64,000 bases of DNA from Phycisphaeraceae bacterium (GTDB lineage Bacteria; Planctomycetota; Phycisphaerae; Phycisphaerales; Zrk34), in assembly GCA_028282805.1 (NCBI GenBank), contig JANQHD010000024.1, positions 62,001 through 126,000 on the forward strand. The letters run 5' to 3'. The translations under genes and the position numbers were made by a program. This document shows positions 33,081-56,201 of this stretch, one piece after another. Numbering within the stretch: position 1 is the stretch's first letter; each line of letters begins with the position of its first letter. Under the pieces are notes generated by a model. That model searched no databases, had not been told where the DNA came from, and saw only the letters and a program-made list of their open reading frames with translations.

Positions 33081-33941
33081 TTAAAGGGAATAGAAGTCCA
33101 GCCCGTTGGAGACCAGGCCGCCCCAGTGCCCCACGAGCCCCACCAACGCCGCCGCCGCCAGCAACAGCAACCGCCGCAGCCAGCGCAACGCCGAGACCCT
33201 CGGCAGCCGGTGCGACAGCTCGCTGATCACCAGGGCCGCCACGGCCACCACGGCCACGACGATGCCCAGCAGCTCGTGCTTTTCGACCAGCTCCTGCCGC
33301 GCGCCGCTGTACGTGCCGAACTTGTGGTGCGCCAGGCCGAGCAACACCGTCAACACCGCGGCGGGCGCCGCGATCGCCAGGCACAAGCGCAGCATCGGCG
33401 CCAGCGGCGCAGCCTTGTTGCACCACAGCACCACCTCCACGAGCAACGCCACCAGCAGCAGCGCGATCGGCAGGTGCGTCGTGGCGGGGTGGAACTTGCC
33501 GACAAACTCCAGCCAGCGCGGCCCGGGGCGCTTGGCGATCGGTATCGCCTCGGGCAACACCGGCGGCGCGTCGGGGGCCGCGGCCGGCTCCGCGAGCTTC
33601 GCGCCCCGCGCGATCCAGTCGTGAATCAACTGGCGCTCGACGGCGCTGACCGGCCCGTTGAGCGCGCCCTCGGTGGGCATGTCGCCGTTGGCGATCAGGT
33701 AGTACAGATCCGATGCGTCGGGGTCGCCCGGCTCGATCAACACCTCTTCGACCATCTTCTGCATGTCGTCGACAAACCCGAAGCCGCCCTCGGGCGCTTC
33801 GAGTTGCGGGCCGTGGCACTCGGCGCAGCGCGTGACGAGGATCGTCTGCACCGCGATCGCGTCGGGTTCGAGCGCGCCGGCAACGGGCGTCAGCGCCAGC
33901 ACGATCGCGGCAACGAGCGGGGCGGTCGGGCGTTTGAGCAT
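33081..33941 (-). CDS. Planctomycete-type monoheme cytochrome c with DUF2231 membrane domain
   Basis: 286 residues with a signal peptide (cleavage near VAGALE), one heme c motif CAECH (39-43) with the planctomycete cytochrome pattern (GPQLEAPEGG, then LYYLIANGDMP), and a C-terminal DUF2231 domain of four membrane helices starting at FHPATTHLPIALLLVALL. It probably moves electrons at the periplasmic face of the membrane. It follows the b562 gene by 3 bases on the same strand and faces the octaheme gene divergently. Confidence 0.85.
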   Translation of the reverse strand: MLKRPTAPLVAAIVLALTPVAGALEPDAIAVQTILVTRCAECHGPQLEAPEGGFGFVDDMQKMVEEVLIEPGDPDASDLYYLIANGDMPTEGALNGPVSAVERQLIHDWIARGAKLAEPAAAPDAPPVLPEAIPIAKRPGPRWLEFVGKFHPATTHLPIALLLVALLVEVVLWCNKAAPLAPMLRLCLAIAAPAAVLTVLLGLAHHKFGTYSGARQELVEKHELLGIVVAVVAVAALVISELSHRLPRVSALRWLRRLLLLAAAALVGLVGHWGGLVSNGLDFYSL

Positions 33942-33944
33942 CGT

Positions 33945-34400
33945 TTATTTCTTGTACTGGTTGTGGCCGGCGCGTTGCAGGTTGTTCAGCTCCTTGACGC
34001 CCGCCTTGGCCGCGTCCTGGTCGCCGGCGAGCAGCGCGATCTCGATGTCGCACATCACGCGCAGCGACTGCGCCGACACCTTGCGGTACTTCAGCTGTTC
34101 GGCGGCGCCCTTGTCTTCGATCGAGTGCGGTGTGAGCACCTTGGCCGCGTGCATCAAAGCCTGCATCTCGTGCACGGTCGCGAGCGTTTGGTCGTTATTC
34201 CCCGCGTCGCCGACGCTCTTGCGCAGCGATTTGAAGTGACCGCCAAGCTCTTCCATGATCTCGTGGAGGCTGCCCTCGGCGTGCTCATCGTGTTCGCCGT
34301 GCTCCTCGGCGCCGGTCGCTTGCCAGGCGAACAGGCCCAACGCGGCGATTAAGGCCAGCGGCAGCCAGAACCGATAACGATATTCAGGCGGTTGCGACAT
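33945..34400 (-). CDS. Cytochrome b562-family protein
   Basis: 151 residues: a membrane or signal helix (about 11-28), a His/Glu-rich linker and a four-helix bundle that fits cytochrome b562. LHEIMEELGGHFKSL aligns with the first helix and AGHNQYKK with the last. The axial ligands Met49 and His146 are both present, 97 residues apart, close to the 95 of E. coli b562. There is no CxxCH, so heme would be non-covalent. Start ATG 34400 is preferred; ATG 34418 is possible. Confidence 0.75.
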   Translation of the reverse strand: MSQPPEYRYRFWLPLALIAALGLFAWQATGAEEHGEHDEHAEGSLHEIMEELGGHFKSLRKSVGDAGNNDQTLATVHEMQALMHAAKVLTPHSIEDKGAAEQLKYRKVSAQSLRVMCDIEIALLAGDQDAAKAGVKELNNLQRAGHNQYKK

Positions 34401-34519
34401 GGGTGTGAGTCCTATCATGACGGGTGAGCGTCTATTGTACCGTGTCGCCCCGCGCAGATTGCGGCAGGCCGTATAACTTCCCGCTTGCGTGCACAACCCG
34501 TTTGCTGTGAGATGGTTGC

Positions 34520-37090
34520 ATGATTCGAGCCTTGATCTTCTTGTTGACGACCGCCGCCATCGTCTGCGTGTTGGTGTTCGGGGCGTTGTGGATGGCCGAT
34601 CGCAAGCCCGGCCCGACCGCCCTGGTGCCCCTGACCGAGCCGTTGCTGCCCATCCGCCTCGACGCGATCGACCCCGTCGCCACCGCCAAATACGTCGGTA
34701 GCCCCAACTGCGTCGAGTGCCACAAAGACCAGTACGACCTCTGGCTCAACAGCCACCACGACCTGGCCATGAAGGTCGCCAACGACGAGACCGTGCTCGG
34801 CGACTTCGACGACGCCGAGTTCGTCTACACCCCGACCAAAAACCTGAAGGAAGGCCAGGAGATCAGGGAGGTCACCCGCTTCTACCGCGAAGGCAGGCGG
34901 TTCCTGGTTGAAACCCTCAACGAGAAGGGCGACCTCCAGGAATACGAGGTGCTCTACACCTTCGGCTGGACGCCGTTGCAGCAGTACCTCGTCGACACCG
35001 GCGACGGGAAGTTGCAGTGCCTGCCCTTCGCGTGGGACGCGCGCGAAAAAGGCACCTACAAGGACATGGACGACGACGGCAACGTCATCGAAGCCGAGGG
35101 CGGCCAACGCTGGTACCACCTCTACGGCGACGAGTACATCCCCCCCGGCGACATCCTCCACTGGCTCGAGGTCAACCAGCGCTGGAACTTCATGTGCGCC
35201 GAGTGCCACTCGACCAACCTCAAGAAGAACTTCGACCTGGCCAACAACCGCTACAACACCACCTGGGCCGAGATCAACGTCGCCTGCGAGTCGTGCCACG
35301 GCCCGGGCTCCGACCACATCAAGTGGGGCCGCGCCAACAAGGACATCGACAAGAAAGACGCCCCGCCCGCCGAAGAAATGGGCCTCGTCGTCAACCTCAA
35401 GAACGACGGCGGCGGCGTCTGGCAGTACAACCAGTCCAAGAACGTCTACGAACGCACCAAGCCGCTCACCTCACGCGTGCAGATGGAGATGTGCGGCCGG
35501 TGCCACGCGCGACGCCACCAGCTCACCGACCAGTACAAACACGGCCAACGCTTCCACGACGCCCACGGCCTGTTCACCGCCGAAGACCCCGCCCTCTACT
35601 TCGCCGACGGCCAGATCAAAGACGAGGTCTACGTCTACGGCTCGTTCCTACAGAGCAAGATGTACGAGCAGGGCGTCCGCTGCATCGACTGCCACGACCC
35701 CCACAGCCTGCTGCTCAAAGAGCAGGGCAACGCGCTGTGCATCGCCTGCCACAACAAGAACACCTACGACTCGACCAGCCACCACTTCCACAAGATGGAC
35801 CAGCCCGGCGCCGACTGCGTGAGCTGTCACATGTACGAGCGGCCGTACATGGGCCACGACTGGCGCTCGGACCACAGCTTCCGCATCCCCCGGCCGGACC
35901 TGTCGGTGTTCTTCGAAACGCCCAACACCTGCACCCAGTGCCACATGCAGATGGACACCAACGAGGGCCGCGACCGCAAACAGACCGACCTGTGGGCGTT
36001 GGAGAAGGTCAACGAGTGGTACGGCCCGATCAACGAACGCGAGCAATGGCCGCACTACGCCGACGCGTTCAAGGCCGTCGAAATCGGCCGCGTCGACGCC
36101 GACGAACGACTGTTCCGCGTGGTCATGGTCGACGAGTACCCGGTGTTCGCCCGCGTCTCGGCCCTGCGGTCGATGACCAACCGAGGCTTCCGCTCCTACC
36201 AGGAACTCGGCCGGGTGCTCCAAGTCGCGCTGGCGCACGAGAGCCCGATGTTCCGCACCGCCGGCGTCGCCGCGCTCGAGGCGCTCAGCACCCAGGAAGA
36301 CAACGCCGAACTCAAACGCGCACTCATGCGGCAGCGATGGGCAGTGGCCGAACGCCACAACCTGTTGGCCGATGAGGTCCGCTCGGTACGCATCGAAACA
36401 GCCCGGCTGCTCGCCACCGACCTGCTCGATGAAGACGAGATCGACCCCGAGATGAAGAGGCAGTTCGACGCGGCGCTCGCCGAGTTCATCGACACCCAGC
36501 GCACCAACGCCGACCGCGGCTCGGCCCACATGAACCTCGGCGTGCTCTACCTGAACATGGGCGACCTCGACAAGGCCGAACAGGCCTACAAGCAGGCGAT
36601 CACCGTCGACCCCGATTTCATCCTGGCCCACATCAACCTCTCCGACTTCTACAAGAAGGAGCGCAAGGACACGACCACCGCGATGACCGTGCTCCGCCGT
36701 GCCCTGGAAAGGCACCCCGACGTGCCGCTGCTGCACTACACGATGGGCCTGACCCGCAAGAGCATCAACTCACCGGAGTACAACAAGCTCGCCGTCGAGT
36801 CGTTCGAGCGGGCCGCCGAGCTGGCGCCCGAGATACCCCACTACGCTTACACCCACGCGCTGTCGCTCAACGCGATCGGCAAGTCCCACGCCGCGATCGT
36901 GGTGCTGCTCAAGAACTACAAGGACCACCCCGAACACCTCGACACCATCCACGCCCTGGCCACGATCTACCGCGACACCGGCCAGATGGACAAGGCCGTG
37001 CGCTACGCCCGGCTGCTCATCAAGCTCGAGCCCCACAACCCCAACTACCGCGCCCTGCACGACAGCATGCTCCAAACGGGCTTCGAGTAA
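34520..37090 (+). CDS. Octaheme cytochrome c with HEAT-like and TPR domains
   Basis: 856 residues. An N-terminal membrane anchor (about 5-25) is followed by eight CxxCH motifs (CVECH, CAECH, CESCH, CGRCH, CIDCH, CIACH, CVSCH, CTQCH; the first at 64-68) in the first half. A helical-repeat region (about 540-640) and TPR repeats (AHMNLGVLYLNMGDLDKAEQ and later) make up the C-terminal half. The hemes suggest a periplasmic redox enzyme or electron conduit related to the c554/nitrite reductase group; no substrate is evident. It is divergent from b562 and the c-DUF2231 gene. Confidence 0.9.
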   Translation: MIRALIFLLTTAAIVCVLVFGALWMADRKPGPTALVPLTEPLLPIRLDAIDPVATAKYVGSPNCVECHKDQYDLWLNSHHDLAMKVANDETVLGDFDDAEFVYTPTKNLKEGQEIREVTRFYREGRRFLVETLNEKGDLQEYEVLYTFGWTPLQQYLVDTGDGKLQCLPFAWDAREKGTYKDMDDDGNVIEAEGGQRWYHLYGDEYIPPGDILHWLEVNQRWNFMCAECHSTNLKKNFDLANNRYNTTWAEINVACESCHGPGSDHIKWGRANKDIDKKDAPPAEEMGLVVNLKNDGGGVWQYNQSKNVYERTKPLTSRVQMEMCGRCHARRHQLTDQYKHGQRFHDAHGLFTAEDPALYFADGQIKDEVYVYGSFLQSKMYEQGVRCIDCHDPHSLLLKEQGNALCIACHNKNTYDSTSHHFHKMDQPGADCVSCHMYERPYMGHDWRSDHSFRIPRPDLSVFFETPNTCTQCHMQMDTNEGRDRKQTDLWALEKVNEWYGPINEREQWPHYADAFKAVEIGRVDADERLFRVVMVDEYPVFARVSALRSMTNRGFRSYQELGRVLQVALAHESPMFRTAGVAALEALSTQEDNAELKRALMRQRWAVAERHNLLADEVRSVRIETARLLATDLLDEDEIDPEMKRQFDAALAEFIDTQRTNADRGSAHMNLGVLYLNMGDLDKAEQAYKQAITVDPDFILAHINLSDFYKKERKDTTTAMTVLRRALERHPDVPLLHYTMGLTRKSINSPEYNKLAVESFERAAELAPEIPHYAYTHALSLNAIGKSHAAIVVLLKNYKDHPEHLDTIHALATIYRDTGQMDKAVRYARLLIKLEPHNPNYRALHDSMLQTGFE

Positions 37091-37110: not shown

Positions 37111-38385
37111 TCAACAATACCTTGCCATCGGCTCGAGGTGCTTGACGAAGTGCGCCTCCAGCACCGCCGCGTAGTCGTCGGCCTGCTCGCTGAGCAGTTG
37201 CTTGATCGACGAACCCAGCCGCGGGTCCGTCATCACCGAGCCGAACGCGCAGTGCAGAATCTGCCGGCCCGCCTCGGTAAAACCCTCGCCCGCCGCCACG
37301 TCTTCCCACCGCTCGAGGTACACTTTCTCCAGCGACTCGGCGTCGGCCAGGTCGTCGGCCGAGGGCACCGTGGCGTTGGCCGCGTGCACGTGGTACGTCG
37401 CGCGGTCGGCGTCGTAACGGTCGCGCGAGAAAGCCACGACTTGGCGGAACAGGTCTTCGTCGTGCATCAACACGACGCGCAACGCTTCGAGGTAACTCGT
37501 GCCCGCGGTCTTCACGTGCAGCAGCCCCCCCGTGGCCCGCGCGAACGCCGCGTACATCGATAGCTTGTCCGACCCCGAGTGCAGCGAAAGCTTGTAAGGC
37601 CCCAGCTGCCTGGCGATCGCCGCGTGGTCCGCGATCGACGCTTCCAGCGCCGCCACGTCGCCGATGTAGTCGACGCCCTTCTCGAACTCGCCGATGTAGC
37701 GCGGCGCCAGCGACACCAGCTTCACCCCCGCCTCGAGCACCTGCTCGGCGATGATGTAGTGCTCGGCCAGCGTGGTCGGTTGATCCGTTTCGTCGACGCT
37801 CAACTCGATCTCATGATCCGCCCCGTGCTTCGCGGTGATCTGTTCGATCGACCGCGCCAGGCTGCGCGCGTGGTTGATCGCCCGTCCGTACTTCACCGCG
37901 GCGCGCATCACCGTCGGCTCGTCGAACGTGATGGTGGGGCCGCCGTCGACCTTGACCGTTTCGTTGAGGTAGCGGTCGACCCAGTCGACGGCGTCACACA
38001 CCTGTTTGTACGCCATCGCCAACTCGTCGGCGCCGTAGCTGTCGGCTTGCTGGTCGACGTGGTCCGACGGGTCGATGGTGTAAAACGTGAACCCCGCCGC
38101 GGCGGTGACCTCGACGTCTTCGGGTGTTTTCAGGTGGTCGGCGTCGGCGCCCCACGCATCGTCGAAACCCGCGGCGGTCAGCGCATCGGTCGCTGCCGTC
38201 ATCACCTCGGTCGCCGTGCGATCGGTGCGCTGCATCTCGCGGATCGACTGCTGCGCAAAAATGCCCTTGATCGGCCCGCCCGCTTGACGCAACGACGCGA
38301 GGTGGCCGGGCGTGGCGAAACCGAGCCGATCGCCGAATCCGAAGCTGGGGGCAAGGCCTAATGTGACGGGTTGCGTGCGTGACAC
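37111..38385 (-). CDS. uxaE: Tagaturonate epimerase family protein (UxaE-like)
   Basis: 424-residue protein. The N-terminus PSFGFGDRLGFATPGHLA, the central KLSLHSGSDKLSMY and the C-terminal IKQLLSEQADDYAAVLEAHFVKHL match the UxaE family, which interconverts D-tagaturonate and D-fructuronate in hexuronate breakdown in Thermotoga. No other uronate genes are in the window, so the substrate is inferred from the family only. GTG at 38385 is the start. The gene is divergent from hypF. Confidence 0.8.
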   Translation of the reverse strand: MSRTQPVTLGLAPSFGFGDRLGFATPGHLASLRQAGGPIKGIFAQQSIREMQRTDRTATEVMTAATDALTAAGFDDAWGADADHLKTPEDVEVTAAAGFTFYTIDPSDHVDQQADSYGADELAMAYKQVCDAVDWVDRYLNETVKVDGGPTITFDEPTVMRAAVKYGRAINHARSLARSIEQITAKHGADHEIELSVDETDQPTTLAEHYIIAEQVLEAGVKLVSLAPRYIGEFEKGVDYIGDVAALEASIADHAAIARQLGPYKLSLHSGSDKLSMYAAFARATGGLLHVKTAGTSYLEALRVVLMHDEDLFRQVVAFSRDRYDADRATYHVHAANATVPSADDLADAESLEKVYLERWEDVAAGEGFTEAGRQILHCAFGSVMTDPRLGSSIKQLLSEQADDYAAVLEAHFVKHLEPMARYC

Positions 38386-38639: not shown

Positions 38640-40967
38640 ATGCACGCCTCAGCGACTCAGCATATTCAACAACTCCGGCGACAATGGCTCATCCAGGGTC
38701 AGGTCCAGGGTGTCGGTTTCCGCCCGTTCGTCTATCGGCTCGCCCGCGAACTGCAACTGCAAGGCTACGTCCGCAACGACGGGCAGGGCGTGACCGTCGA
38801 AGCCCAAGGCGCCGCCAAGCAACTGGCACGCTTCGAACGGCGATTGCAAACCGATAAGCCCGGGCTGGCGGTGATCGATTCGATCTACACCACACACGTC
38901 ACACCAAACGCGCACGAAGACGGCTTTATCATCGTGCACAGCGAAGCCGACGGCGCAACGGCACGCGTCACCATCGACACAGCGCTATGCGACATGTGCA
39001 AGCGCGAACTGCTCGATCCGATCGACCGCCGGCACGGTTATGCGCTGATCAATTGCACGCATTGCGGGCCGCGCTACTCGATCGTCAACGGCATCCCGTA
39101 CGACCGGCCGAACACGACCATGGCCGGGTTCGACATGTGCCCCGACTGCGAGGACGAGTACACCGACCCGGCCGACCGGCGTTACCACGCGCAACCCATC
39201 GCCTGCCACGCGTGCGGCCCGACGCTGCAACTGCTCGCCCCGACCGGCGATCCGTTCGACGCCGACCCCATCGCACGCGCCGCCGAACTTCTGCTCGACG
39301 GGGGCATCGTGGCCATCAAGGGCTTGGGCGGTTTCCACCTCGCGGTTCGAGCCGACGACGAAAACGCCGTCCAACGCCTGCGCCAACGCAAGCAGCGCGA
39401 CGCCAAACCTTTCGCCGTGATGGTGCGTGACATCGACGCCGCCAAACACTTGGCCAGGCTCAGCGACGAGGCGGCCAAGCTGCTGCGATCGGCGGTCTGC
39501 CCGATCGTGTTGGCCGAAGCGAACAACGCCGCTGCGCTGGCGCAGTCGATTGCGCCGGGCGTGCACCGGGTGGGCTTGATGCTGCCGTACACGCCGATCC
39601 ATCACCTGTTGTACGCCGCCGAGCCACGGTTGAACCTTCTGGTCATGACCAGCGCCAACCTCACCGACGAACCGCTGGTGATCGACAACGACGAAGCGGT
39701 CGAACGGTTGGGCGGCCTGTGCGATGCGCTGCTGTTGCACGACCGGCCGATCGCCCGGCGTGTCGACGATTCGGTAGTCATCGACATGCCCGATGCGCCG
39801 CCGCTGCCGATCCGTCGCGCCCGCGGTTACGCGCCGGCACCGCTGCGCCTGCCGATCGCGGCCGACGAGCCGGGCCTGTGCGTGGGCGGCGAGCTGAAAA
39901 ACACCGTCGCGGTCGTGCGGGGCGACGAGGTCATCCTCAGCCAGCACCTCGGCGACCTGAAACACCCCTTGGCGCTCGAGGCGTTCGAGCAAGCGGTGCA
40001 TGACCTGATGGCGCTGTTCGAGGTTCAACCGCGCTGGGTGGCGTGCGATGCGCACCCGCTGTACCTCAGCACGCAGCGTGCCAAGCGGTGGGCCGAGCAG
40101 TGGGGCGTGCCATTGATCGAGGTGCAACACCACCACGCGCACGCCGCGGCCCTGTTGGCCGAGCACCGCATGACCGAGCCCATTTTGGCGGCGGTGTGCG
40201 ACGGCGTGGGCTACGGCGACGACGGCGGTGTGTGGGGCGGCGAACTGTTACTCGCGGGCGCGATGGGCTATCGGAGGCTCGCCCATCTGCGGCCCTTACG
40301 CCTTCCGGGCGGCGACGCGGCGGCGCGAGACACGCGCCGTTGCGCTTTGGCGCTGCTGTACCAGGCGTTCGGCGACGACTTCGCCGACCACCCGGTGGCG
40401 CTGCGGTTGTACCCGTCGCGCGACGAGCGCACGGTGCTGGCGACGATGATCAAAAACAACGTGCGCTGCGCCGAGAGCACCGCCGCGGGGCGCGTGTTCG
40501 ACGGCGTCGCGGCCCTGCTGGGCCTGTGCAGCGAAAACCGCCACGAGGCCGAGGCCCCGATGAAGCTCGAGGCCGCCGCCAGCATGGTCGGGCAGTTGGG
40601 CGTGGGCTTGAAGCTCGACGCCGAGGTCACCGGCGATGTGATCGACTTGGCGCCCATGGTCCGCCAACTGCTCGTCGCCGAGGCGAAGGGCAGTTCGAAG
40701 CACGAGTTGGCCGCGGCGTTCCACGCGGGCTTCGCCGACGCCTGGGCGGAACTCGTCGGCCACGCCGCGGCGACGACCGGCGTGCGCTGCGTGGGGCTGA
40801 CCGGCGGGGTGTTCTGCAACGAACGGCTGACGACGACACTGAGCGAACGGCTGACCGCAGCACGCCTGCGCGTGCTGCGCCACGAGGCCGTGCCGCCGAA
40901 CGACGGCGGGCTGGCGCTGGGCCAGGCGTACGCGGCGATCGACCACCTGAAAGACACGGAAGGGTAA
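38640..40967 (+). CDS. hypF: [NiFe]-hydrogenase maturation carbamoyltransferase HypF
   Basis: Converts carbamoyl phosphate to the thiocarbamate that HypE turns into the cyanide ligands of the NiFe site. The 775-residue protein has an acylphosphatase domain (IQGQVQGVGFRPFVYRLA, about 18-35), two zinc fingers (CDMC..CTHC and CPDC..CHAC), a YrdC-like domain and a Kae1-like C-terminal domain (QHHHAHAAALLAEH, GLTGGVFCNERL). AAGGAG lies 9 bases before the ATG. It is the first gene of the hydrogenase operon. Confidence 0.97.
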   Translation: MHASATQHIQQLRRQWLIQGQVQGVGFRPFVYRLARELQLQGYVRNDGQGVTVEAQGAAKQLARFERRLQTDKPGLAVIDSIYTTHVTPNAHEDGFIIVHSEADGATARVTIDTALCDMCKRELLDPIDRRHGYALINCTHCGPRYSIVNGIPYDRPNTTMAGFDMCPDCEDEYTDPADRRYHAQPIACHACGPTLQLLAPTGDPFDADPIARAAELLLDGGIVAIKGLGGFHLAVRADDENAVQRLRQRKQRDAKPFAVMVRDIDAAKHLARLSDEAAKLLRSAVCPIVLAEANNAAALAQSIAPGVHRVGLMLPYTPIHHLLYAAEPRLNLLVMTSANLTDEPLVIDNDEAVERLGGLCDALLLHDRPIARRVDDSVVIDMPDAPPLPIRRARGYAPAPLRLPIAADEPGLCVGGELKNTVAVVRGDEVILSQHLGDLKHPLALEAFEQAVHDLMALFEVQPRWVACDAHPLYLSTQRAKRWAEQWGVPLIEVQHHHAHAAALLAEHRMTEPILAAVCDGVGYGDDGGVWGGELLLAGAMGYRRLAHLRPLRLPGGDAAARDTRRCALALLYQAFGDDFADHPVALRLYPSRDERTVLATMIKNNVRCAESTAAGRVFDGVAALLGLCSENRHEAEAPMKLEAAASMVGQLGVGLKLDAEVTGDVIDLAPMVRQLLVAEAKGSSKHELAAAFHAGFADAWAELVGHAAATTGVRCVGLTGGVFCNERLTTTLSERLTAARLRVLRHEAVPPNDGGLALGQAYAAIDHLKDTEG

Positions 40968-40971
40968 ACCC

Positions 40972-41217
40972 ATGTGCTTGGCGGTACCGGCAAAGATCGT
41001 GGCGGTGAAGGACGAGGCCTGTGCGACGGCCGACCTGCACGGCAACCAGATCGATGTCAGCACGGTCATGACGCCGGACGCGGGCGTGGGCGATTGGGTG
41101 TTGATCCACGCGGGTTTCGCCATCCAGCAACTCGACCAGCAGACGGCGATGGAGACGTGGGCCGTGCTCAACGACCTCGAACCACCGCCGACCCAACAGG
41201 CAGGGCCGCCGACATGA
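40972..41217 (+). CDS. hypC: Hydrogenase maturation chaperone HypC
   Basis: 81-residue chaperone that carries the Fe(CN)2CO unit with HypD and docks on the large subunit. The invariant N-terminus MCLAVPAKIV is present, with Cys2 as the functional residue. It lies 4 bases after hypF, and its TGA overlaps the hypD ATG. Confidence 0.97.
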   Translation: MCLAVPAKIVAVKDEACATADLHGNQIDVSTVMTPDAGVGDWVLIHAGFAIQQLDQQTAMETWAVLNDLEPPPTQQAGPPT

Positions 41218-42347
41218 ACGACTTGAGATCGACAACGCAACGGGCGCTCGATCGGCTCAAGCGCGCCGCCGACACACTCGGCCGCGACGTGAAGCTGATG
41301 GAGGTGTGTGGCACACACACCATGAGCGCGTTCCGCAGCGGGTTGCACGCGCTGATCCCCGACAACGTCAAGCTGATCAGCGGGCCGGGCTGCCCGGTGT
41401 GCGTCACCGCGCAGGGCGACATCGACCAGATGATCGCGATATCGGGTGAGCCCGACGTCGTGCTGTGCACGTACGGCGACATGATGCGCGTGCCCGGCAA
41501 GCACGGGTCGCTGGAGGCCATGCGCTGCAAGGGCGCCCGCATCGAGGTGATCTACTCGACCCTCGAAGCGGTGCAGCTGGCGCAACGGCAGCCCAACTCG
41601 CGGGTGGTGCTGGCGGCGGTGGGCTTCGAAACCACCACGCCCCCCACGGCCGCGGCCATCGACGCCGCCGCGAAGCTGGGTTTGAAAAACTTCAGCGTGC
41701 TGGCCAGCCACAAGCTGGTCGTGCCGGCGATGACGGCGCTGCTCGACTCGGTGGGCGACGACACGACGGGCATCGAAGGGTTCCTCTGCCCGGGCCACGT
41801 GTCGGTCATCATCGGCAGCGACGCCTACCAACCGCTGATCGACACCTACCGCATGCCCTGCGTGATCGGTGGGTTCGAGCCGATGCTCATGGCCGACGGC
41901 ATGGCCTCGCTGGTCGAGCAGGTCGTCGCCGGCGAGGCGAAGCTCGAAAACCTGTACCCCGAGGCCGTCACCCCCGGCGGCAACCCGGTGGCGCAGGAAC
42001 TGATCGACCGCATCTTCGAGCCGGACGAGGTGCGCTGGCGCGGCGTGGGGCCGATCCCCGGCAGCGGCCTGGCGATCCGCGACGAATACGCGGCGTACGA
42101 CGCACGCAAGGTGTTTGCGCTCGACGACATGCCCGACCGCGAACCGAATGGCTGCATTTGCGGCCAAGTGATCGCGGGCCTGGCCAACCCCGACGGGTGC
42201 AGCCTGTTCGGCACGGTGTGCACGCCGGTGCGGCCGATCGGCCCGTGCATGGTCAGCGGCGAGGGCACGTGCCAGGCGTGGTTCAAGTACCAGCGCCCCG
42301 CGATCGCCGCACGCGGTCGCGTGGCGAAGGAGGTGGTGACCGCATGA
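41214..42347 (+). CDS. hypD: Hydrogenase maturation factor HypD
   Basis: Iron-sulfur scaffold on which the Fe(CN)2CO unit is built. The 377-residue protein has EVCGTHTMS, GPGCPVCVT, FLCPGHVS and the C-terminal cysteine region (PNGCICGQVIAG, FGTVCTP, GEGTCQAW). Start ATG at 41214 overlaps the hypC stop, and the stop overlaps hypE by the same ATGA arrangement, indicating coupled translation. Confidence 0.97.
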   Translation: MNDLRSTTQRALDRLKRAADTLGRDVKLMEVCGTHTMSAFRSGLHALIPDNVKLISGPGCPVCVTAQGDIDQMIAISGEPDVVLCTYGDMMRVPGKHGSLEAMRCKGARIEVIYSTLEAVQLAQRQPNSRVVLAAVGFETTTPPTAAAIDAAAKLGLKNFSVLASHKLVVPAMTALLDSVGDDTTGIEGFLCPGHVSVIIGSDAYQPLIDTYRMPCVIGGFEPMLMADGMASLVEQVVAGEAKLENLYPEAVTPGGNPVAQELIDRIFEPDEVRWRGVGPIPGSGLAIRDEYAAYDARKVFALDDMPDREPNGCICGQVIAGLANPDGCSLFGTVCTPVRPIGPCMVSGEGTCQAWFKYQRPAIAARGRVAKEVVTA

Positions 42348-43417
42348 CTGCCGTCGACAAAACACAAAACGACGTCGGCACCGCGCGGCATGTGGCCGAG
42401 CGCGAGATCGTGCTCGCCCACGGCGGCGGCGGGCAGTTGACCGACCAGCTGTTGCTCGAAACCGTGATGCCACGGCTGAGCAACCCGGCGCTCGACGCGC
42501 TCGACGACGGCGCGCTGCTGGATCCGACCGGCCAAGACCGCGTGGTGATGACGACCGACGGCTACGTGGTGCAGCCGTGGCGTTTCCCCGGGGGGAACAT
42601 CGGGCAGATCGCGGTGTGCGGCACGGTCAACGACCTGGCGGTCAGCGGCGCGACGCCCATGGGCATCTCGCTGGCGATCATCGCCGCCGAGGGTTTGAAG
42701 AAGAAAGACCTGGAAGCGGTGCTCGACTCGGTGGCCGCGGCGTCGAAGCGGGCGGGCGTGCCCGTGGTGACCGGCGACACCAAGGTCGTGGGGCGCGACC
42801 AGGCGGACGATATCTACCTGACCACGGCGGGCGTGGGCCGGCGCTCGCCGAAGGTCAAGCTCGGCATCGAACACGTTCGGCCGGGCGACGTGCTGCTGGT
42901 CAACGGCCCGATCGGCGAACACGGGTTGGCGGTGATGCTGGCCCGCGAGATGCCGGAGGTGACCAGCGTGCTGCGGAGCGACGTGGCGCCACTGAACCAC
43001 TTGATCGCGGCGTGCATGGCGGAGCTGGGCGACGACCTGGTGTTCATGCGGGACGCGACGCGCGGCGGGCTTGCGGGGGTGGCGGCGGACCTCGCGGCAC
43101 AGTCGGGCTACCACGTGACCCTCGACGAAGAAGCGATCCCCGTGCGGCCCGAAGCGCAGCACGCGGCGGACATGCTCGGCCTCGACCCGTTGGAAGTCGC
43201 CAACGAGGGCAAGGTCGTCATGGTCGTGCGCGAAGCGGCGGCGGAGAAGGCGCTGTCGGTGGTGCGCGGCTTCGAAGACGCCGAACTCGGCGGCGAGGCG
43301 GCGGTCATCGGCCGCGTGGGCGACGCCGCCGACGGCGTGTGCGAGCTGCACACGGTCATCGGCGGCCGGCGCGTGATCCAGAAACCCTACGGAGAAGAAC
43401 TACCACGCATCTGCTGA
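42344..43417 (+). CDS. hypE: Hydrogenase maturation factor HypE
   Basis: Dehydrates the carbamoyl group, bound to its C-terminal cysteine, to form cyanide. The 357-residue protein of the PurM-like fold begins LAHGGGGQLTDQLL, has MTTDGYVVQPWRFPGGNIG, MRDATRGGLAGV and ends in the required PRIC. It overlaps hypD by four bases. The start MTAVDKTQNDV adds about 20 residues before the conserved core. Confidence 0.97.
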   Translation: MTAVDKTQNDVGTARHVAEREIVLAHGGGGQLTDQLLLETVMPRLSNPALDALDDGALLDPTGQDRVVMTTDGYVVQPWRFPGGNIGQIAVCGTVNDLAVSGATPMGISLAIIAAEGLKKKDLEAVLDSVAAASKRAGVPVVTGDTKVVGRDQADDIYLTTAGVGRRSPKVKLGIEHVRPGDVLLVNGPIGEHGLAVMLAREMPEVTSVLRSDVAPLNHLIAACMAELGDDLVFMRDATRGGLAGVAADLAAQSGYHVTLDEEAIPVRPEAQHAADMLGLDPLEVANEGKVVMVVREAAAEKALSVVRGFEDAELGGEAAVIGRVGDAADGVCELHTVIGGRRVIQKPYGEELPRIC

Positions 43418-43436
43418 TGCGATGAAAGGAGACACC

Positions 43437-43556
43437 GTGAATACGCTTGCTCACTTCGTGATCGACCCGGGATGGATGTTGTTGGGTATGGCGGCCGGCG
43501 CCGTGCTCGGCGTGGCGGTTTACCGCGCGCTGACCAAGCAGGACGACCAAGGCTGA
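43437..43556 (+). CDS. 39-residue single-helix membrane protein between hypE and hoxE
   Basis: Short GTG-started frame: an N-terminal MNTLAHFVIDPGW, one membrane helix (about 14-30, MLLGMAAGAVLGVAV) and a charged tail ending KQDDQG. AAGGAG lies 5 bases before the GTG, a good ribosome site. It sits in a 180-base gap within an otherwise tight operon. No known hydrogenase component of this kind comes to mind. It could anchor or regulate the hydrogenase; function is unknown. Confidence 0.6.
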   Translation: MNTLAHFVIDPGWMLLGMAAGAVLGVAVYRALTKQDDQG

Positions 43557-43597
43557 TCGGGTTCTGGGCCGCACCTGGAAACTGAAGGATACGGACT

Positions 43598-44098
43598 ATG
43601 ATCGCATCATTGAAAAAGCCCGAAGCGCCTTCGGACGACAAGCGATGGAAGATCGTGCAGGCGACGATGCGCCGCAACGGTTACAGCCGCAACGCGCTGA
43701 TCGAGACGCTGCACACCGTGCAGAACAGCTTCGGCTACCTCGACGAGGAGTCGCTGCGCTACGTGGCGGCGTCGCTGCGTGTGCCGCTGAGCGCGGTGTA
43801 CGGCGTGGCGACGTTCTACCACCTGTTCACGCTCAAGCCGCAGGGCGAACACACCTGCGTCGTGTGCACGGGCACGGCCTGCTACATCAAGGGCACGCCG
43901 GAGCTGCTGCAGCACATCGAAACGCGTTACGGGATCAAGGACGGCGACACGACGGCCGACGGCAAGGTCTCGCTGCTGACCGCCCGCTGCATCGGCGCCT
44001 GCTCGATGGCCCCGGCGGTGGTGTTCGACGGCGAGATGGAAGGCAACGTCACCGAAGAGCAACTCGACACCGAAGTGGATGGGTGGTTGAAATCATGA
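43598..44098 (+). CDS. hoxE: Bidirectional hydrogenase diaphorase subunit HoxE (NuoE-like)
   Basis: 166-residue thioredoxin-fold protein with a [2Fe-2S] site: Cys in CVVCTGTACYIKG and in TARCIGACSMAP. It links the hydrogenase to the NAD module and possibly to ferredoxin or the membrane. The N-terminus RRNGYSRNALIETLHTVQNSFGYL matches NuoE/HoxE. The TGA overlaps the hoxF ATG. Confidence 0.95.
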   Translation: MIASLKKPEAPSDDKRWKIVQATMRRNGYSRNALIETLHTVQNSFGYLDEESLRYVAASLRVPLSAVYGVATFYHLFTLKPQGEHTCVVCTGTACYIKGTPELLQHIETRYGIKDGDTTADGKVSLLTARCIGACSMAPAVVFDGEMEGNVTEEQLDTEVDGWLKS

Positions 44099-45798
44099 CA
44101 CCAGAAGAACTCGAACAGATCGCCGTCGATCAGCAGGAAGCGGAAAACCAGCTGGACCACCGCATCAACGTGTGCATGGCCGCCAGCTGCATGTCCCGCC
44201 ACAGCGAGCAGATCGTCAAGGACATGCAAGCGAAGCTGAAGGACATGGGCGAGAAAGGCGAAAAGACCCAGGTGCGCTGCGTGGGCTGCATGGGCCTGTG
44301 CTCGGCCGGGCCGCTGGTGGAGGTTGACCATCCGGCCGACGAGGCCGCGGGCAAGGGGCCCGAGAAGGTCATGTACCGCGACATCAGCCCCGAGCACGCC
44401 GAGTCGATCGTCAACGCCACCGTGGACGGGCGGACGCTGCCCGACCTGGTGCAGCCGACCGACATCCCGTACTTCACCCGCCAGAAGCGCATCGTCACCG
44501 AGAACTCGGGCTACATCGACCCCGAGTGCATCGAGGACTACATCGCCGCCGGCGGTTACAGCGGGCTGGTCTCGGCGCTGACCGAGATGTCGCCCGACGA
44601 CGTGATCCACGAGGTCACCGTCAGCGGCCTGCGCGGCCGCGGCGGCGGCGGCTTCCCCACGGGCCTCAAGTGGAGCACCGTCGCCCGCACCGACGCCGAC
44701 CAGAAGTACGTGGTCTGCAACGCCGACGAGGGCGACCCCGGCGCGTTCATGGACCGGGCCGTGCTCGAGAGCGACCCGCACCGGATCATCGAGGGCATGA
44801 CCATCGCCGGCTACGCGGTCGGCGCGAGCAAGGCCTACATCTACGTCCGCGCCGAGTACCCGCTGGCGATCAAACGCCTCAAGCGAGCGATCAGCCAGGC
44901 GAACAAGTTCGGCTTGCTCGGCACGAACCTGTGCGACACGCCGTTCAATTTCGATATCGAGCTCCGCCTCGGCGCCGGCGCGTTCGTCTGCGGCGAGGAG
45001 ACGGCGCTGATCGCGTCGATCGAGGGCAAGCGCGGCACACCCCGCCCGCGCCCGCCGTTCCCGGCCAGCTACGGCCTGTTCGGCAAGCCCACCCTGATCA
45101 ACAACGTCGAAACGATGGCGACCATCCCCTGGATCACCCGCTACGGCGGCGAGGCGCTGGCCGCGATCGGCACCGAGAAGTCCAAGGGCACGAAGGTGTT
45201 CGCGTTGGCCGGCAAGATTAATTGCAACGGCCTGATCGAGGTGCCCATGGGCATCAGCCTGCGCGAGATCATCTACGAGATCGGCGACGGCATCCCCGAC
45301 GGCGCGACCTTCAAGGCCGTGCAGACCGGCGGCCCGTCCGGCGGCTGCGTCCCGGCCGACAAGCTGGACATGCCCGTCGACTACGAGTCGCTCCAGGAAG
45401 CGGGCACCATCATGGGCTCGGGCGGCATGGTCATCATGGACGAGACCTCGAGCATGGTGGACGTCGCCCGCTTCTTCATGGAGTTCTGCAAGGACGAATC
45501 GTGCGGCAAGTGCGTGCCCTGCCGCGTGGGCACCGCGCAGATGCTCGACCTGCTCGAGAAGATGTGCGCCAAGTCGGCCACGCAGAAGGACCTGGACCTG
45601 CTCAAGGAGCTGTGCGACGTGACCAAGGCGTGCAGCCTGTGCGGCCTGGGCCAGACCGCGCCCAACCCCGTGCTCTCGACGCTGCACTACTTCGAGAACG
45701 AGTACATGGACTCGCTGCAGGGCGAGGTCACCGGCGTCGGCGCCGTGCCGGCCACCGAGACCAAGGCCGGCGCGCCGGACCCGACCCACGAGAAATAA
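44095..45798 (+). CDS. hoxF: Hydrogenase diaphorase subunit HoxF (NuoF-like, NAD/FMN)
   Basis: 567-residue flavoprotein that exchanges electrons with NAD(H). The N-terminal thioredoxin-like domain has a second [2Fe-2S] set (CMAASC, CVGCMGLC). The core has the NADH-binding GRGGGGFPTGLKW and NADEGDPGAF, and the FMN site around YIYVRAEYP and GAGAFVCGEETAL. The C-terminal [4Fe-4S] motif is SCGKCVPCRVG with a later Cys in ACSLCGLG. Start ATG at 44095 overlaps hoxE. A family A palindrome lies between its stop and hoxU. Confidence 0.96.
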   Translation: MTPEELEQIAVDQQEAENQLDHRINVCMAASCMSRHSEQIVKDMQAKLKDMGEKGEKTQVRCVGCMGLCSAGPLVEVDHPADEAAGKGPEKVMYRDISPEHAESIVNATVDGRTLPDLVQPTDIPYFTRQKRIVTENSGYIDPECIEDYIAAGGYSGLVSALTEMSPDDVIHEVTVSGLRGRGGGGFPTGLKWSTVARTDADQKYVVCNADEGDPGAFMDRAVLESDPHRIIEGMTIAGYAVGASKAYIYVRAEYPLAIKRLKRAISQANKFGLLGTNLCDTPFNFDIELRLGAGAFVCGEETALIASIEGKRGTPRPRPPFPASYGLFGKPTLINNVETMATIPWITRYGGEALAAIGTEKSKGTKVFALAGKINCNGLIEVPMGISLREIIYEIGDGIPDGATFKAVQTGGPSGGCVPADKLDMPVDYESLQEAGTIMGSGGMVIMDETSSMVDVARFFMEFCKDESCGKCVPCRVGTAQMLDLLEKMCAKSATQKDLDLLKELCDVTKACSLCGLGQTAPNPVLSTLHYFENEYMDSLQGEVTGVGAVPATETKAGAPDPTHEK

Positions 45799-45809
45799 AC
45801 GATCCGCCC

Positions 45810-45837
45810 ATTAGCCCCGGGTTCTACCCGGGGGGGC
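45810..45837 (+). repeat. Family A palindrome, copy 3 (hoxF-hoxU gap)
   Basis: ATTAGCCCCGGGTTC, then TACCCGGGGGGG. It is 11 bases after the hoxF stop, inside the operon. Confidence 0.85.
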
Positions 45838-45852
45838 CAAAGGACATTCGAA

Positions 45853-46578
45853 ATGGCTAGACAAAAACTACCGCCGACCCAGACGCTGACGATGAAGATC
45901 GACGACGTCGACGTCACCGCGAAGCCGGGTCAGACGATCCAGGACGTGGCGCGTGACCACGACATCGAGATCCCCGGCCTGTGCTACATCGACGGGCTGA
46001 CCATCTGGGGCGCTTGCCGGCTTTGCCTCGTCGAGGTCGAGGGCATGCGCAAGCTGCTCGCCGCCTGCTCGACCGAGGTGGCCGAGGGCATGATCGTCCA
46101 CACCGATACCGAGCGCCTCCGCCGCTACCGCAAGATGGTCATCGAGATGCTGTTCGCCGAGCGCAACCACGTGTGCTCGGTGTGCGTGTCGAACGGCCAC
46201 TGCGACCTGCAGGCGATGGCCGTGCAGCTGGGCGTGGACCACGTGCACCTGCCGTACATGAACCCGGACGTGAAGGTCGACTCGTCGCACGACCGCTTCC
46301 GCCTCGACCACAACCGCTGCATCCTGTGCACGCGCTGCGTGCGCGTCTGCGGCGAGATCGAGGGCGCGGCGACCAAGGGCGTGGGCGGACGCGGCATCAA
46401 CGCCCGCATCATCAACGACCTGAACATGCCCTGGGGCGACTCGCAGACCTGCACGTCCTGCGGCAAGTGCGTGCACATCTGCCCGACCGGCGCCCTGGTT
46501 GAAAAGGGCACCGCCGCGGCCGAGATGAAGAAACACCGCAGCTTCCTTCCGTACCTCACCGTCATGCGGGAGTCCTGA
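45853..46578 (+). CDS. hoxU: Hydrogenase electron-transfer subunit HoxU (NuoG N-terminal-like)
   Basis: 241-residue iron-sulfur protein that connects HoxF to the hydrogenase HoxY. It has an N-terminal [2Fe-2S] ferredoxin fold (GLCYIDGLTIWGACRLCLVE, later ACSTEV), a His-Cys3 [4Fe-4S] site (CSVCVSNGHCDLQ) and two [4Fe-4S] sites (CILCTRCVRVC, CTSCGKCVHICPTG). AAAGGA lies 9 bases before the ATG. It is followed 2 bases later by hoxY. Confidence 0.96.
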   Translation: MARQKLPPTQTLTMKIDDVDVTAKPGQTIQDVARDHDIEIPGLCYIDGLTIWGACRLCLVEVEGMRKLLAACSTEVAEGMIVHTDTERLRRYRKMVIEMLFAERNHVCSVCVSNGHCDLQAMAVQLGVDHVHLPYMNPDVKVDSSHDRFRLDHNRCILCTRCVRVCGEIEGAATKGVGGRGINARIINDLNMPWGDSQTCTSCGKCVHICPTGALVEKGTAAAEMKKHRSFLPYLTVMRES

Positions 46579-46580
46579 AC

Positions 46581-47132
46581 ATGAGCAGTGATACCACACC
46601 AAAACCCGTAACCATCGCGACCGTCTGGCTCGACGGGTGCTCCGGCTGCCACATGTCGTTCCTCGACATGGACGAGCGCCTCATCGAGATCGCCCCGCTG
46701 ATCCAGATCGTGCACTCGCCGGTCGTCGACACCAAGCAGATCCCCCCCGGCACCGACGTGGGCATCATCGAGGGCGCGATCAGCAACGAGGACGACGAGG
46801 CCAAGGCGAAGAAGATGCGCGCCGCGTGCAACTTCATCGTCTCGCTCGGCGACTGCGCCGTGACCGCCAACGTCCCGTCGATGCGCAACGTGTTCGACAA
46901 ACAGGAGTGCTTCGACCGCGCCTACCACGAGAACGCCGACCTGCAGCCCGCCAACCCCGATGTGGTCGTCCCGCCGCTGCTGGACAAGGCCCTGGCCGTG
47001 CACCAGGTGATCGACGTGGACCTGTACGTGCCCGGCTGCCCGCCCCCGGCCGACGCGATCTACTACGTGCTCAGCGAACTGTTGGCCGGTCGCCAGCCCG
47101 ACCCGCTGCAACTGACAAGATTCGGAAAGTAA
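46581..47132 (+). CDS. hoxY: Bidirectional hydrogenase small subunit HoxY
   Basis: 183-residue small subunit carrying the proximal [4Fe-4S] cluster near the NiFe site. Cysteines lie in [23 protein letters not shown] and [15 protein letters not shown]. There is no Tat signal, in line with a cytoplasmic group 3 enzyme. It is tightly spaced between hoxU and hoxH. Confidence 0.96.
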
Positions 47133-47136
47133 CGCC

Positions 47137-48561
47137 ATGACCAAGACCATCACCATCGACCCCGTGACGCGCATCGAGGGCCACGCCCGCATCACCCTGC
47201 AGCTCGACAAGAAGGGCCAGGTCGACGATGCGCAGTTCCACGTGACCCAGTTCCGCGGCTTCGAGAAGTTCTGCGAGGGCCGGCCGTTCACCGAGATGCC
47301 CGCGATCACCGCGCGCACCTGCGGCATCTGCCCGGTCAGCCACCTCATGGCCTCCAGCAAGGCGTGCGACGACCTGATGGCCGTCGACATCCCGCCCACC
47401 GCGGACATGCTGCGCCGCCTGATGAACCTCGCGCAGCTTACCCAGTCGCACGCGCTGAGCTTCTTCCACCTCTCCAGCCCCGACATGCTGCTCGGCTGGG
47501 ACAGCGACCCGGCCCAACGCCACATCTTCGGCGTTGCGGCCAAGCACCCCGAGCTCGCCGTCGACGGCGTCAAGCTCCGCAAGATCGGGCAGACCATCAT
47601 CGAGATCCTCGGCGGCAAGAAGGTCCACCCCGCGTGGATGGTCGGCGGCGGCGTCAACGCGCCCCTCACCGAAGAGACCCGCCAGAAGATGCTCGACATG
47701 CTCCCCGAAGCCCTCGACATCGCCCGGCGCACCATCAAGTGGTACAAGCAGACCCTCGGCCAGTTCGGCGAAGAGGTCCGCACCTTCGCCAACTTCCCGT
47801 CGATGTTCATGGGCCTCGTCGATAAGTCCGGCGGCCTCGAGCACTACGACGGCTACCTCCGCGTCACCGACGAGAACGGCAAGACCGTCGAGGACATGAT
47901 CGACCCCAAGCGCTTCCACGAGGTGCTCGGCGAGGCGGTCGAGAAGTTCTCTTACATGAAGTTCCCGTACTACAAGGCGCGGGGCTACCCCGATGGCATG
48001 TACCGCGTCGGCCCGCTGGCCCGGTTGAACATCTCCGACCACGCCGGCACCCCGATCGCCGACCAGGAGCTTGCCGAGTTCAAGGACCTGCACCGCGGGG
48101 CCGTGCTCAGCTCGTTCCAGTACCACTACGCCCGGCTGATCGAGATCATCTTCGCCATCGAGCGCATGAAGCAGCTGCTCGAAGACCCGATGATCCTCGA
48201 CCCCCACGTCCGCGCCCGCGCCCGCGGCAACCGCAACGAGGGCATCGGCGTCGCCGAGGCGCCGCGCGGCACGCTCATCCACCACTACAAGATCAACGAC
48301 GACGGACAGATCACCTGGGCCAACCTCATCATCGCCACCGGCCACAACAACCTGGCGATGAACCGGGGCGTCAAGCAGGTGGCCCAGCACTTCGTTGACG
48401 GCACCAAGCTCCAAGAAGGCATGCTCAACCGCGTCGAGGCGGTCATCCGCTGCTTCGACCCGTGCCTGAGCTGCGCCACCCACGCCATGGGCCAGATGCC
48501 GCTGCACGTGCAGCTGGTCGACCCCACCGGCAACGTGGTCGACGAGGTGCTACGCGACTGA
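47137..48561 (+). CDS. hoxH: Bidirectional [NiFe]-hydrogenase large subunit HoxH
   Basis: Holds the NiFe active site that interconverts H2 with protons and electrons. The 474-residue precursor has the L1 motif [10 protein letters not shown] (Cys62, Cys65) and the L2 motif DPCLSCATH (Cys443, Cys446), followed by a 25-residue C-terminal peptide that the maturation protease should remove after His449. The HoxEFUYH set points to the NAD-linked group 3d. A family A palindrome follows its stop. Confidence 0.97.
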
Positions 48562-48566
48562 TTTCC

Positions 48567-48595
48567 CGTTAGCCCCGGGTTCCACCCGGGGGGAT
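48567..48595 (+). repeat. Family A palindrome, copy 4 (after hoxH)
   Basis: GTTAGCCCCGGGTTC, then CACCCGGGGGGATC. It is 7 bases after the hoxH stop, before the protease gene. Confidence 0.85.
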
Positions 48596-48605
48596 CGAGT
48601 GACCC

Positions 48606-49085
48606 ATGACCCCAAGCGTGCTCATCATCGGATACGGCAGCGACCTGCGGGGCGACGATGCGCTCGGCCAGCGGGCCGCAGAGATGCTGCTCGAGCGTTA
48701 CGGCGAGGTCGCCAACGTCACCGTGCTGCAACGCGCCAGCCTCACCCCCGAGCTGGCGCACGACGTGTCGCTGGCCGACGTGGTGGTGTTCGTCGACTGC
48801 GACGCCGACGCCGAGCCCGCCGTGATCACGCGCCACGACACCGTGCCCATCGACGACGCGTCCGCGGCGATGGTGCACTTCCTCGACCCGCCGGCGCTGC
48901 TCGGCTGGTCGAAGCTGCTGTACGGCAGCGAGGCGCGTGGCGTCATGTTCACCATGGGCGGCGTCACCTTCGAGTGCGCCGATGAGCTGTCGACGCCGGT
49001 CGAGTCGGCGATGCCCGAGCTGATCGACAGAGTGAGCGCCGAGGTCGACGCGGCGTTGGGCGACCGGGAGGTGGTCGATGCATGA
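48606..49085 (+). CDS. hoxW: Hydrogenase maturation protease (HoxW/HyaD family)
   Basis: 159-residue endopeptidase that trims the C-terminal peptide of HoxH once nickel is in place. The N-terminal IIGYGSDLRGDDALGQRA is the family signature, with an Asp as likely nickel ligand where Glu is common. A central VFVDCDAD and HFLDPPALL (His ligand) follow. It overlaps hypA by 8 bases. The position directly after hoxH supports this specificity. Confidence 0.93.
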   Translation: MTPSVLIIGYGSDLRGDDALGQRAAEMLLERYGEVANVTVLQRASLTPELAHDVSLADVVVFVDCDADAEPAVITRHDTVPIDDASAAMVHFLDPPALLGWSKLLYGSEARGVMFTMGGVTFECADELSTPVESAMPELIDRVSAEVDAALGDREVVDA

Positions 49086-49440: not shown

Positions 49441-49456
49441 GCGAAGGAGCAGAGCC

Positions 49457-56195: not shown

Positions 56196-56201
56196 GGCCC
56201 G

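Follow-up and report, generated by a model that had tools for sequence, protein, structure and literature searches.

An octaheme cytochrome with a HEAT/TPR tail in a Phycisphaeraceae genome, its b562/c-DUF2231 neighbours and its relationship to the NrfA/OcwA/MccA superfamily

Background

Multiheme enzymes of the NrfA/OcwA/MccA superfamily carry out central reactions of nitrogen and sulfur cycling and of extracellular electron transfer. The active-site copper of MccA is held by Cys ligands, and in OcwA a His-His pair lies over heme 2. In PMC6703420, OcwA is described with six bis-His hemes, one His-Met heme and two open hemes (2 and 5), MccA with a pattern of hemes 1-4 and 6-9 in which heme 2 is the active site, and both with a beta-sheet domain within the heme domain. 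MccA further displays an atypical heme site (CX12[AN]KGCH / CX15CH, PMC6976685), and octaheme tetrathionate reductase combines eight CXXCH with a Lys axial ligand on its active heme (PMC12285233).

Organization of the locus

The window analysed here is a stretch of 64,000 nucleotides from a Phycisphaeraceae bacterium (contig JANQHD010000024.1, positions 62,001 to 126,000). Three of its genes code for heme proteins and are arranged divergently around a short intergenic region:

34520-37090, + strand: octaheme c-type cytochrome with a HEAT/TPR tail (856 aa; relatives in 90 other loci)
33945-34400, - strand: cytochrome b562-family protein (start 34400, stop 33945; 151 aa; PF07361)
33081-33941, - strand: monoheme c domain (PSCyt1) fused to a DUF2231 membrane domain, hereafter c-DUF2231 (286 aa; one CXXCH)
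34401-34519, no strand: divergent intergenic region (119 bases between the octaheme and b562 starts)

The b562 stop and the c-DUF2231 start are 3 bases apart, and GC content by codon position supported coding for all three genes (GC3 of 0.93, 0.81 and 0.94). No clear conservation of the 119-base region was seen in comparison with the same-genus sequences G001/L071. Coordinates, genes and divergent layout were as described in the sequence-only reading. Its portrayal of the proteins also held: an octaheme protein joining eight heme c sites to a large repeat region, a b562 retaining both axial ligands and a third protein coupling heme c to a membrane domain. Membrane anchoring appeared likely for two of the three.

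The octaheme gene is followed by hypF-hypC-hypD in the window and in the same-genus locus L089 (hypF and hypD were assigned by Pfam in the window, the L089 genes by reading of the sequence). A hydrogenase link was considered and set aside since no recurrence of this type was found in the neighbour clusters of the family, and the arrangement was treated as genus synteny.

The octaheme-TPR family

Within the octaheme protein, the following features were distinguished:

34523-34597, + strand: predicted N-terminal membrane anchor (aa 2-26, a helix in the AF2 whole-protein model)
34673-36034, + strand: heme domain with eight CXXCH (aa 52-505; model m70e018b9c36a, mean pLDDT 88.3)
34769-35119, + strand: beta-sheet insert between heme motifs 1 and 2 (aa 84-200; strands in the models)
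35195-35209, + strand: CAECH, the second heme motif (aa 226-230; predicted catalytic heme from the profile alignment to OcwA)
35987-36439, + strand: HEAT-like helical region (about aa 490-640; paired helices in the model)
36446-37075, + strand: TPR region (about aa 643-852; several Pfam TPR families above cut-off; helices)

The eight CXXCH motifs start at aa 64, 226, 256, 325, 388, 407, 433 and 471, and the families Cytochrome_C554, Cytochrome_C7, Paired_CXXCH and TPR all scored above their Pfam cut-offs. The label HEAT comes from our reading of the model helices and corresponds to no Pfam match. Between anchor and heme domain, the linker (aa 28-53) displayed pLDDT values below 50 in the AF2 whole-protein model. 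As had been proposed for a TPR tail on a multiheme cytochrome, protein binding is suggested by these TPR matches and by the modelled helices.

Most of the frame could be aligned with relatives at 90 further loci, and eight CXXCH were retained in 89 of the 91 loci (three duplicates, L003, L071 and L081, being left out of this set), the two others displaying seven; a chance origin of the frame is thereby ruled out. By sequence, the protein is a member of a widespread, enzyme-like but uncharacterised full-length family occurring in several phyla. Among relatives of the window genome, 14 of 121 carried the gene.

Heme-domain fold and heme ligands

A profile search retrieved OcwA (3.7e-19), an undecaheme cytochrome (2.9e-10), c554 (2.7e-5) and MccA (1e-4). 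The fold search was run with the heme-domain model only, since the TPRs would swamp a whole-protein search. It placed OcwA first (Foldseek 1.1e-13; VIA Z score of 19.1 over 327 residues at 3.4 A), followed by the undecaheme cytochrome (11.9), MccA (8.4, near the range that the fold tool deems common for models with no clear match), octaheme nitrite reductase (5.4), NrfA (5.1) and c554 (4.9). Of the structural references pointed to by the sequence-only reading, c554 and NrfA were thus surpassed by OcwA and then by MccA, and HAO was absent among the fold matches listed. Judged by its modelled fold and its beta-sheet insert, this domain belongs to the OcwA/MccA branch of the NrfA superfamily.

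In the profile alignment, the order of heme motifs followed that of OcwA with heme 5 skipped (hemes 1-4 and 6-9), so that heme 2 (CAECH, aa 226) is likely the active site and the equivalent of heme 2 in OcwA, MccA and c554. C226, C229 and H230 were found in all 91 rows. Outside the motifs, H266, H395, H421, H424 and H452 as well as Met381 and Met444 were invariant (91/91), and H80 was kept in 89 rows, the two others displaying gaps. H200 (86/91) and H214 (85/91), located at or just after the end of the insert that precedes heme 2, were less strictly conserved. Set against the ligation of OcwA, this count of conserved His and Met fits an open heme 2; axial ligands were assigned by counting conserved residues, the models being heme-free, and an all-bis-His electron wire may be the alternative.

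An electron wire lacking catalysis, for instance one serving OcwA-like extracellular electron transfer with the TPRs as a scaffold towards an outer partner, would agree with the nearest fold being that of OcwA, a cell-surface terminal reductase. We nevertheless consider it unlikely: no second multiheme gene recurred in the neighbour clusters (inspected by eye from sequence starts), the modelled protein is anchored through its N-terminus, and many holders of the gene are, by name, aerobes (Bradyrhizobium, Methylomonas and Nitrosomonas).

The b562/c-DUF2231 pair

The b562 protein matched PF07361 with 37.7 bits (cut-off 30), and its putative axial ligands Met49 and His146 were present in 24 and 26, respectively, of 26 distinct rows, that of the window included. 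In c-DUF2231, both PSCyt1 (24.4 bits, cut-off 22) and DUF2231 (PF09990, 29.2 bits, cut-off 26.4) scored above cut-off; H151, H156 and H222 were found in 39/39 rows and H272 in 27/39, some of these rows being the same gene from overlapping loci.

The three genes had been proposed to form a conserved membrane-bound redox complex, co-conservation in relatives having been named beforehand as the refuting test. This co-conservation largely failed. In the partner profile search, b562 adjoined the octaheme gene in two of the 91 loci (the window, G000, and the same-genus G001) and c-DUF2231 in the window only, many of the loci having short flanks. The G001 contig ends just past b562, and c-DUF2231, if present there, would lie beyond that end. 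Elsewhere among the 91 loci, DUF2231 was encountered near the octaheme gene only in L098, at 8.6 kb. Conversely, b562 and c-DUF2231 were also adjacent in G048 and G054, both of which lacked an octaheme match. From these distributions, we infer that they constitute a separate two-gene unit which is a local neighbour of the octaheme gene.

A three-subunit membrane complex would have c-DUF2231 taking electrons from quinol, b562 shuttling them and the octaheme protein acting as terminal component under one control region. Adjacency and divergence in the window, the equally divergent b562 in G001 and the invariant His of the DUF2231 domain (39/39), which would suit a membrane heme b, are consistent with such a complex; the rarity of the association and the independent occurrence of the pair make it quite improbable.

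Association with sulfatase genes

A sulfatase-family gene occurred in the flanks of 53 of the 91 octaheme loci, as counted with a profile built from linked sulfatases. Of 45 non-planctomycete loci with 5 kb available on both sides, 33 had a sulfatase no more than 5 kb away. Among 121 Hyphomicrobiales genomes drawn independently, the octaheme gene was present in 18. Sulfatases were found in the flanks of 15 of the 16 testable ones (G162 and G147, with short or split contigs, being left out) versus 0.42 expected from PF00884 density, and each of the 15 had at least one linked sulfatase with the C-x-[AP]-x-R motif. Adjacency was read from gene flanks. The corresponding P of 2.6e-24 presupposes Poisson placement as well as independence of the genomes, and gives an order of size only; the genomes are not independent, and some (G122 and G169 at least) are also among the 91. 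A hydrophobic N-terminal stretch was displayed by 51 of the 55 linked sulfatases longer than 450 aa.

These observations raise the possibility that the octaheme-TPR protein acts in the same pathway as an exported sulfatase, the TPRs docking the sulfatase and the heme domain performing a redox step on it or on its substrate or product, with adjacent genes in Proteobacteria and perhaps in trans in the window organism, whose genome is rich in sulfatases (80 PF00884 matches). As the function of the whole family, this is rather doubtful. The 12.5 kb scanned to each side of the window gene contained no sulfatase, and the gene itself groups with L089 and L072, outside a proteobacterial set of 54 rows that are mostly sulfatase-linked (support 80). 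Linkage within 5 kb concerned three of nine planctomycete loci, a figure made little informative by the density of sulfatases there. At least 17 scored sulfatases were counted in 9 of the 14 octaheme genomes among relatives versus 18 of the 107 others (p 0.0004), but this excess follows family and the counts are lower bounds, so that it was not relied on. In Proteobacteria the link is very tight, so that the role of the family can be tested directly in strains amenable to culture.

A more specific proposal concerns sulfatase maturation, for which FGE uses copper and oxygen while anSME is a radical SAM enzyme. The family could represent a third, heme-based formylglycine-generating system, the window protein by extension only: an anchored periplasmic octaheme oxidase would stand in for FGE and anSME, its TPR tail holding the newly exported sulfatase while the active-site Cys is oxidised. 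In the cleanest cases (Rhodopseudomonas palustris JSC-3b, Bradyrhizobium BTAi1, a Nitrosomonas MAG, Methylomicrobium, Methylomonas and G246), the only C-x-[AP]-x-R sulfatase detected is encoded close to the octaheme gene, and neither an FGE motif (three of four PF03781 matches having been read in BTAi1) nor an anSME above cut-off was detected.

Against this proposal, C-x-[AP]-x-R was still carried by 18 of 20 hand-chosen PF00884 regions. The 20 came from 16 Hyphomicrobiales genomes that lack the octaheme gene, any PF03781 match at 1e-30 and any anSME above cut-off, and the 18 represent 15 of these genomes. Lack of the known maturases is therefore not diagnostic. Also read were 17 regions of other genomes without the octaheme gene, nearly all of which had weaker PF03781 matches, and three regions of anSME-positive controls. 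Moreover, strong FGE matches (at least 237 bits) were present in five of the 18 octaheme genomes (G206, G236, G237, G238 and G250), in addition to one of 228 bits in G168, and in 15 of the 103 octaheme-negative genomes of the draw. In a second set, of 18 octaheme-locus genomes, FGE exceeded 240 bits in G123, G130, G131, G132, G135 and G138, and G124 had a partial FGE with the motif; the status of G125, G129 and G134 came from a weak partial match only (83-90 bits), and three of four PF03781 matches were read in G121 and two of three in G136. G139 had no sulfatase in its octaheme flanks despite seven in the genome. The window genome displayed no FGE match at 1e-15 and one anSME-like match of 323.6 bits, below the cut-off of 349.45. 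The literature searched, with most subscription journals outside its reach, yielded no multiheme or octaheme cytochrome tied to sulfatase maturation. A maturase role appears very improbable; the proteobacterial sulfatase link could bear on sulfatase maturation in bacteria where neither FGE nor anSME was found.

Proposed function

The octaheme gene probably codes for an uncharacterised octaheme oxidoreductase of the NrfA/OcwA/MccA superfamily, the b562/c-DUF2231 pair being separate rather than supplying obligate subunits. As c-type hemes are attached in the periplasm, the protein should face this compartment, with an N-terminal anchor and a periplasmic heme domain. Electrons would pass through a series of hemes matching OcwA hemes 1-4 and 6-9, and heme 2, with its distal site open, would be the place where either a protein side chain or a small substrate of N or S type is reduced or oxidised, while the TPR tail would dock a partner protein. 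The pair probably forms an electron-carrier unit composed of a membrane module with heme c and a soluble heme b protein. Divergent neighbours of the octaheme gene in this genus, its members may supply or drain octaheme electrons, as suggested by gene position in one or two genomes.

Comparison with known systems

The window b562 resembles cytochrome b562 (PF07361) in its family score and its likely Met and His ligands, and stands out by an octaheme linkage that, among the 91 loci, is confined to this genus.

NrfA, octaheme nitrite reductase and c554 were distant fold matches only (Z of 4.9-5.4). The catalytic CXXCK of NrfA is missing, every paired Cys of the window protein belonging to a CXXCH, and nothing corresponds to OcwA heme 5, the catalytic heme in NrfA.

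The octaheme protein is unrelated to FGE and to radical SAM enzymes, having a heme domain instead, although in Proteobacteria its gene adjoins C-x-[AP]-x-R sulfatases as that of FGE does in G206 and G237.

With MccA/SirA, the octaheme sulfite reductase (PDB 4rkm/4rkn), it shares eight hemes in the 1-4 and 6-9 arrangement, the beta-sheet insert and, as predicted, the active heme 2. It differs by the absence of the atypical heme site, all eight motifs being CXXCH, and by a TPR tail which MccA lacks. No conserved non-heme Cys of the MccA copper type appeared among near-invariant positions of the 91 rows, a test made at the sequence level, and 42 of the 91 members had no non-heme Cys at all.

OcwA of Thermincola potens (PDB 6i5b) has the heme-domain fold, the beta-sheet insert and the order of heme motifs in common with the octaheme protein. 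Yet it carries nine hemes, including heme 5, and two open sites, whereas the octaheme protein has eight and no motif at the heme-5 place; its C-terminal end is a three-helix bundle instead of HEAT/TPR repeats. Compared with these systems, the family would constitute a widespread branch of the superfamily, combining a predicted open heme with a protein-docking tail.

The three heme-protein genes and their surroundings

The sequence-only reading had placed three heme-protein genes around a shared 119-base control region, and the coordinates confirmed both their divergent layout and the length of the gap between the divergent starts. The two minus-strand genes were separated by 3 bases. Pfam searches called c-heme and TPR families in the octaheme protein, PF07361 in the b562, and PSCyt1 with DUF2231 in the third protein, in agreement with the heme c sites joined to repeats and the heme c joined to a membrane domain described earlier; likewise, the b562 was found to keep its likely axial ligands. 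Alignment of the DUF2231 domain displayed three invariant histidines, with one more present in 27 of the 39 rows, and the invariant residues would suit a membrane heme.

33081-33941, minus strand: c-DUF2231 protein (286 aa, one CXXCH and a membrane domain)
33945-34400, minus strand: cytochrome b562 (151 aa)
34520-37090, plus strand: octaheme protein (856 aa, eight CXXCH, TPR tail)
37111-38385: UxaE tagaturonate epimerase (PF16257, 401 bits)
38640-50116: bidirectional-type [NiFe]-hydrogenase cluster (hypF, hypD, hypE-like, NADH-51K-like, 2Fe-2S/4Fe-4S, small and large hydrogenase subunits, hypB-like)
50321-58741: apparent cbb3 oxidase and assembly genes (judged by eye only)
59996-63586: full-length pyruvate:ferredoxin oxidoreductase (POR_N, POR, EKR, PFOR_II)

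UxaE separates the octaheme gene from hypF in the window, but not in the same-genus locus L089. The top NCBIfam match of the hydrogenase large subunit was VhuA, far under the VhuA cut-off.

The octaheme-TPR family and its supposed partners

The octaheme-TPR family is real, wide and uncharacterised. Of 209 candidate stretches from a scan of named genomes, 198 were confirmed. The best 80 of these 198 were retained, and their holders included Planctomycetota, Acidobacteriota, Pseudomonadota, Nitrospirota and others. Together with relatives they made up 91 distinct loci, every one a single open frame aligned across most of the query, with eight CXXCH motifs in 89 and seven in two.

The suggestion that the three heme proteins form one complex was not supported by their distribution. 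Among 121 relatives, the octaheme gene occurred in 14 (the window's own genome counted), b562 relatives in 24 and c-DUF2231 relatives in 47. The octaheme and b562 genes adjoined only in the window genome (G000) and in G001 of the same genus, whose contig stops 94 bases past the b562 match. The b562 and c-DUF2231 genes lay side by side in G000, G048 and G054; the latter two gave no octaheme match, and there the pair adjoined what we read as an apparent symporter gene. Partner-profile searches recorded b562 in two of the 91 octaheme loci and a DUF2231 gene in two (one at 8.6 kb distance), absences being soft at short-flank loci since flanks run from none to about 12 kb.

A sulfatase link outside the window

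Clustering of all flank ORFs put sulfatases (PF00884) ahead of every other gene type, and a profile built from the linked sulfatases matched in the flanks of 53 of the 91 loci. For a less biased count, 121 tool-drawn Hyphomicrobiales genomes were searched, 18 of which carried the octaheme gene. PF00884 matches were present in all 18, versus 72 of the 103 octaheme-negative genomes. The fetched stretch held a sulfatase in 15 of 16 octaheme genomes with usable flanks, where 0.42 was expected from sulfatase density. Each of these 15 had at least one linked sulfatase with C-x-[AP]-x-R, the place converted to formylglycine in known type I sulfatases. Linked sulfatases were of clearly different kinds, two groups sharing 27-29% identity. 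Outside the window organism, the link is strong.

In the tree, the window protein grouped with L089 and a further locus, L072 (support 98), outside a 54-row set (support 80, quick method) containing 44 of the 52 sulfatase-linked rows. PF00884 was matched 80 times in the 3.9-Mb genome of the window organism, and no sulfatase was found within the 12.5 kb scanned on each side of the octaheme gene. The link therefore belongs to the large proteobacterial clade of the family; for the window gene it is, given this tree position and these flanks, only a lead. Two neighbouring sulfatases occur just past the window end (G000:C3:128347-130919). Two octaheme genes on contigs labelled Mycobacterium sp. KBS0706 (L112, L120) grouped with Bradyrhizobium-type sequences, so that label or assembly may be wrong.

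Sulfatase maturation

Known type I sulfatases need formylglycine, according to PMC3141025. That the octaheme-TPR protein itself supplies it, as a heme-based maturase, is very improbable. A strong FGE match and an above-cut-off anSME were both absent in 12 of the 18 octaheme Hyphomicrobiales genomes (G168, at 228 bits, counted as FGE), and in G206 and G237 FGE adjoins other sulfatases while the octaheme gene adjoins its own. Among 16 selected genomes with no octaheme gene, FGE or anSME, however, 15 kept Cys-type sulfatases; therefore either there is another route or the searches overlook it, and these enzymes can be explained without the octaheme gene. Examples of Cys-type sulfatases in octaheme-negative Hyphomicrobiales where searches for FGE and anSME found neither are those of G142, G145 and G170 (loci L215, L216 and L222).

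Fold and heme order

The heme domain was modelled with pLDDT 88.3 and pTM 0.84. In the model of the whole protein (pLDDT 88.2, pTM 0.87), a loose linker joins an N-terminal helix to the heme domain, which contains a beta-sheet insert, and helical repeats continue from there to the C-terminal end. Among the matches listed, the heme domain was closest to OcwA (Z 19.1), followed by an undecaheme S-layer cytochrome (11.9) and MccA (8.4). Of the relatives proposed for comparison by the sequence-only reading, c554 and NrfA were recovered near Z 5, as was octaheme nitrite reductase, all below OcwA; HAO was not among the matches listed. The protein is not MccA, because it has neither the atypical heme site (a feature taken from PMC6976685) nor any conserved non-heme Cys, and absence of CXXCK rules out NrfA.

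Across the 91 loci, Met381 and Met444 were invariant, as were six non-motif histidines, barring gaps. This count leaves no conserved histidine for heme 2 except H200 and H214, missing from five or six members, so heme 2 would be open, and it is likely the catalytic one. Motifs of the family profile lined up with OcwA hemes 1-3 and 6-9 and, weakly, with heme 4, which leaves OcwA heme 5 without a counterpart in the family. The six invariant non-motif histidines equal in number the bis-His hemes of OcwA, given as six in PMC6703420.
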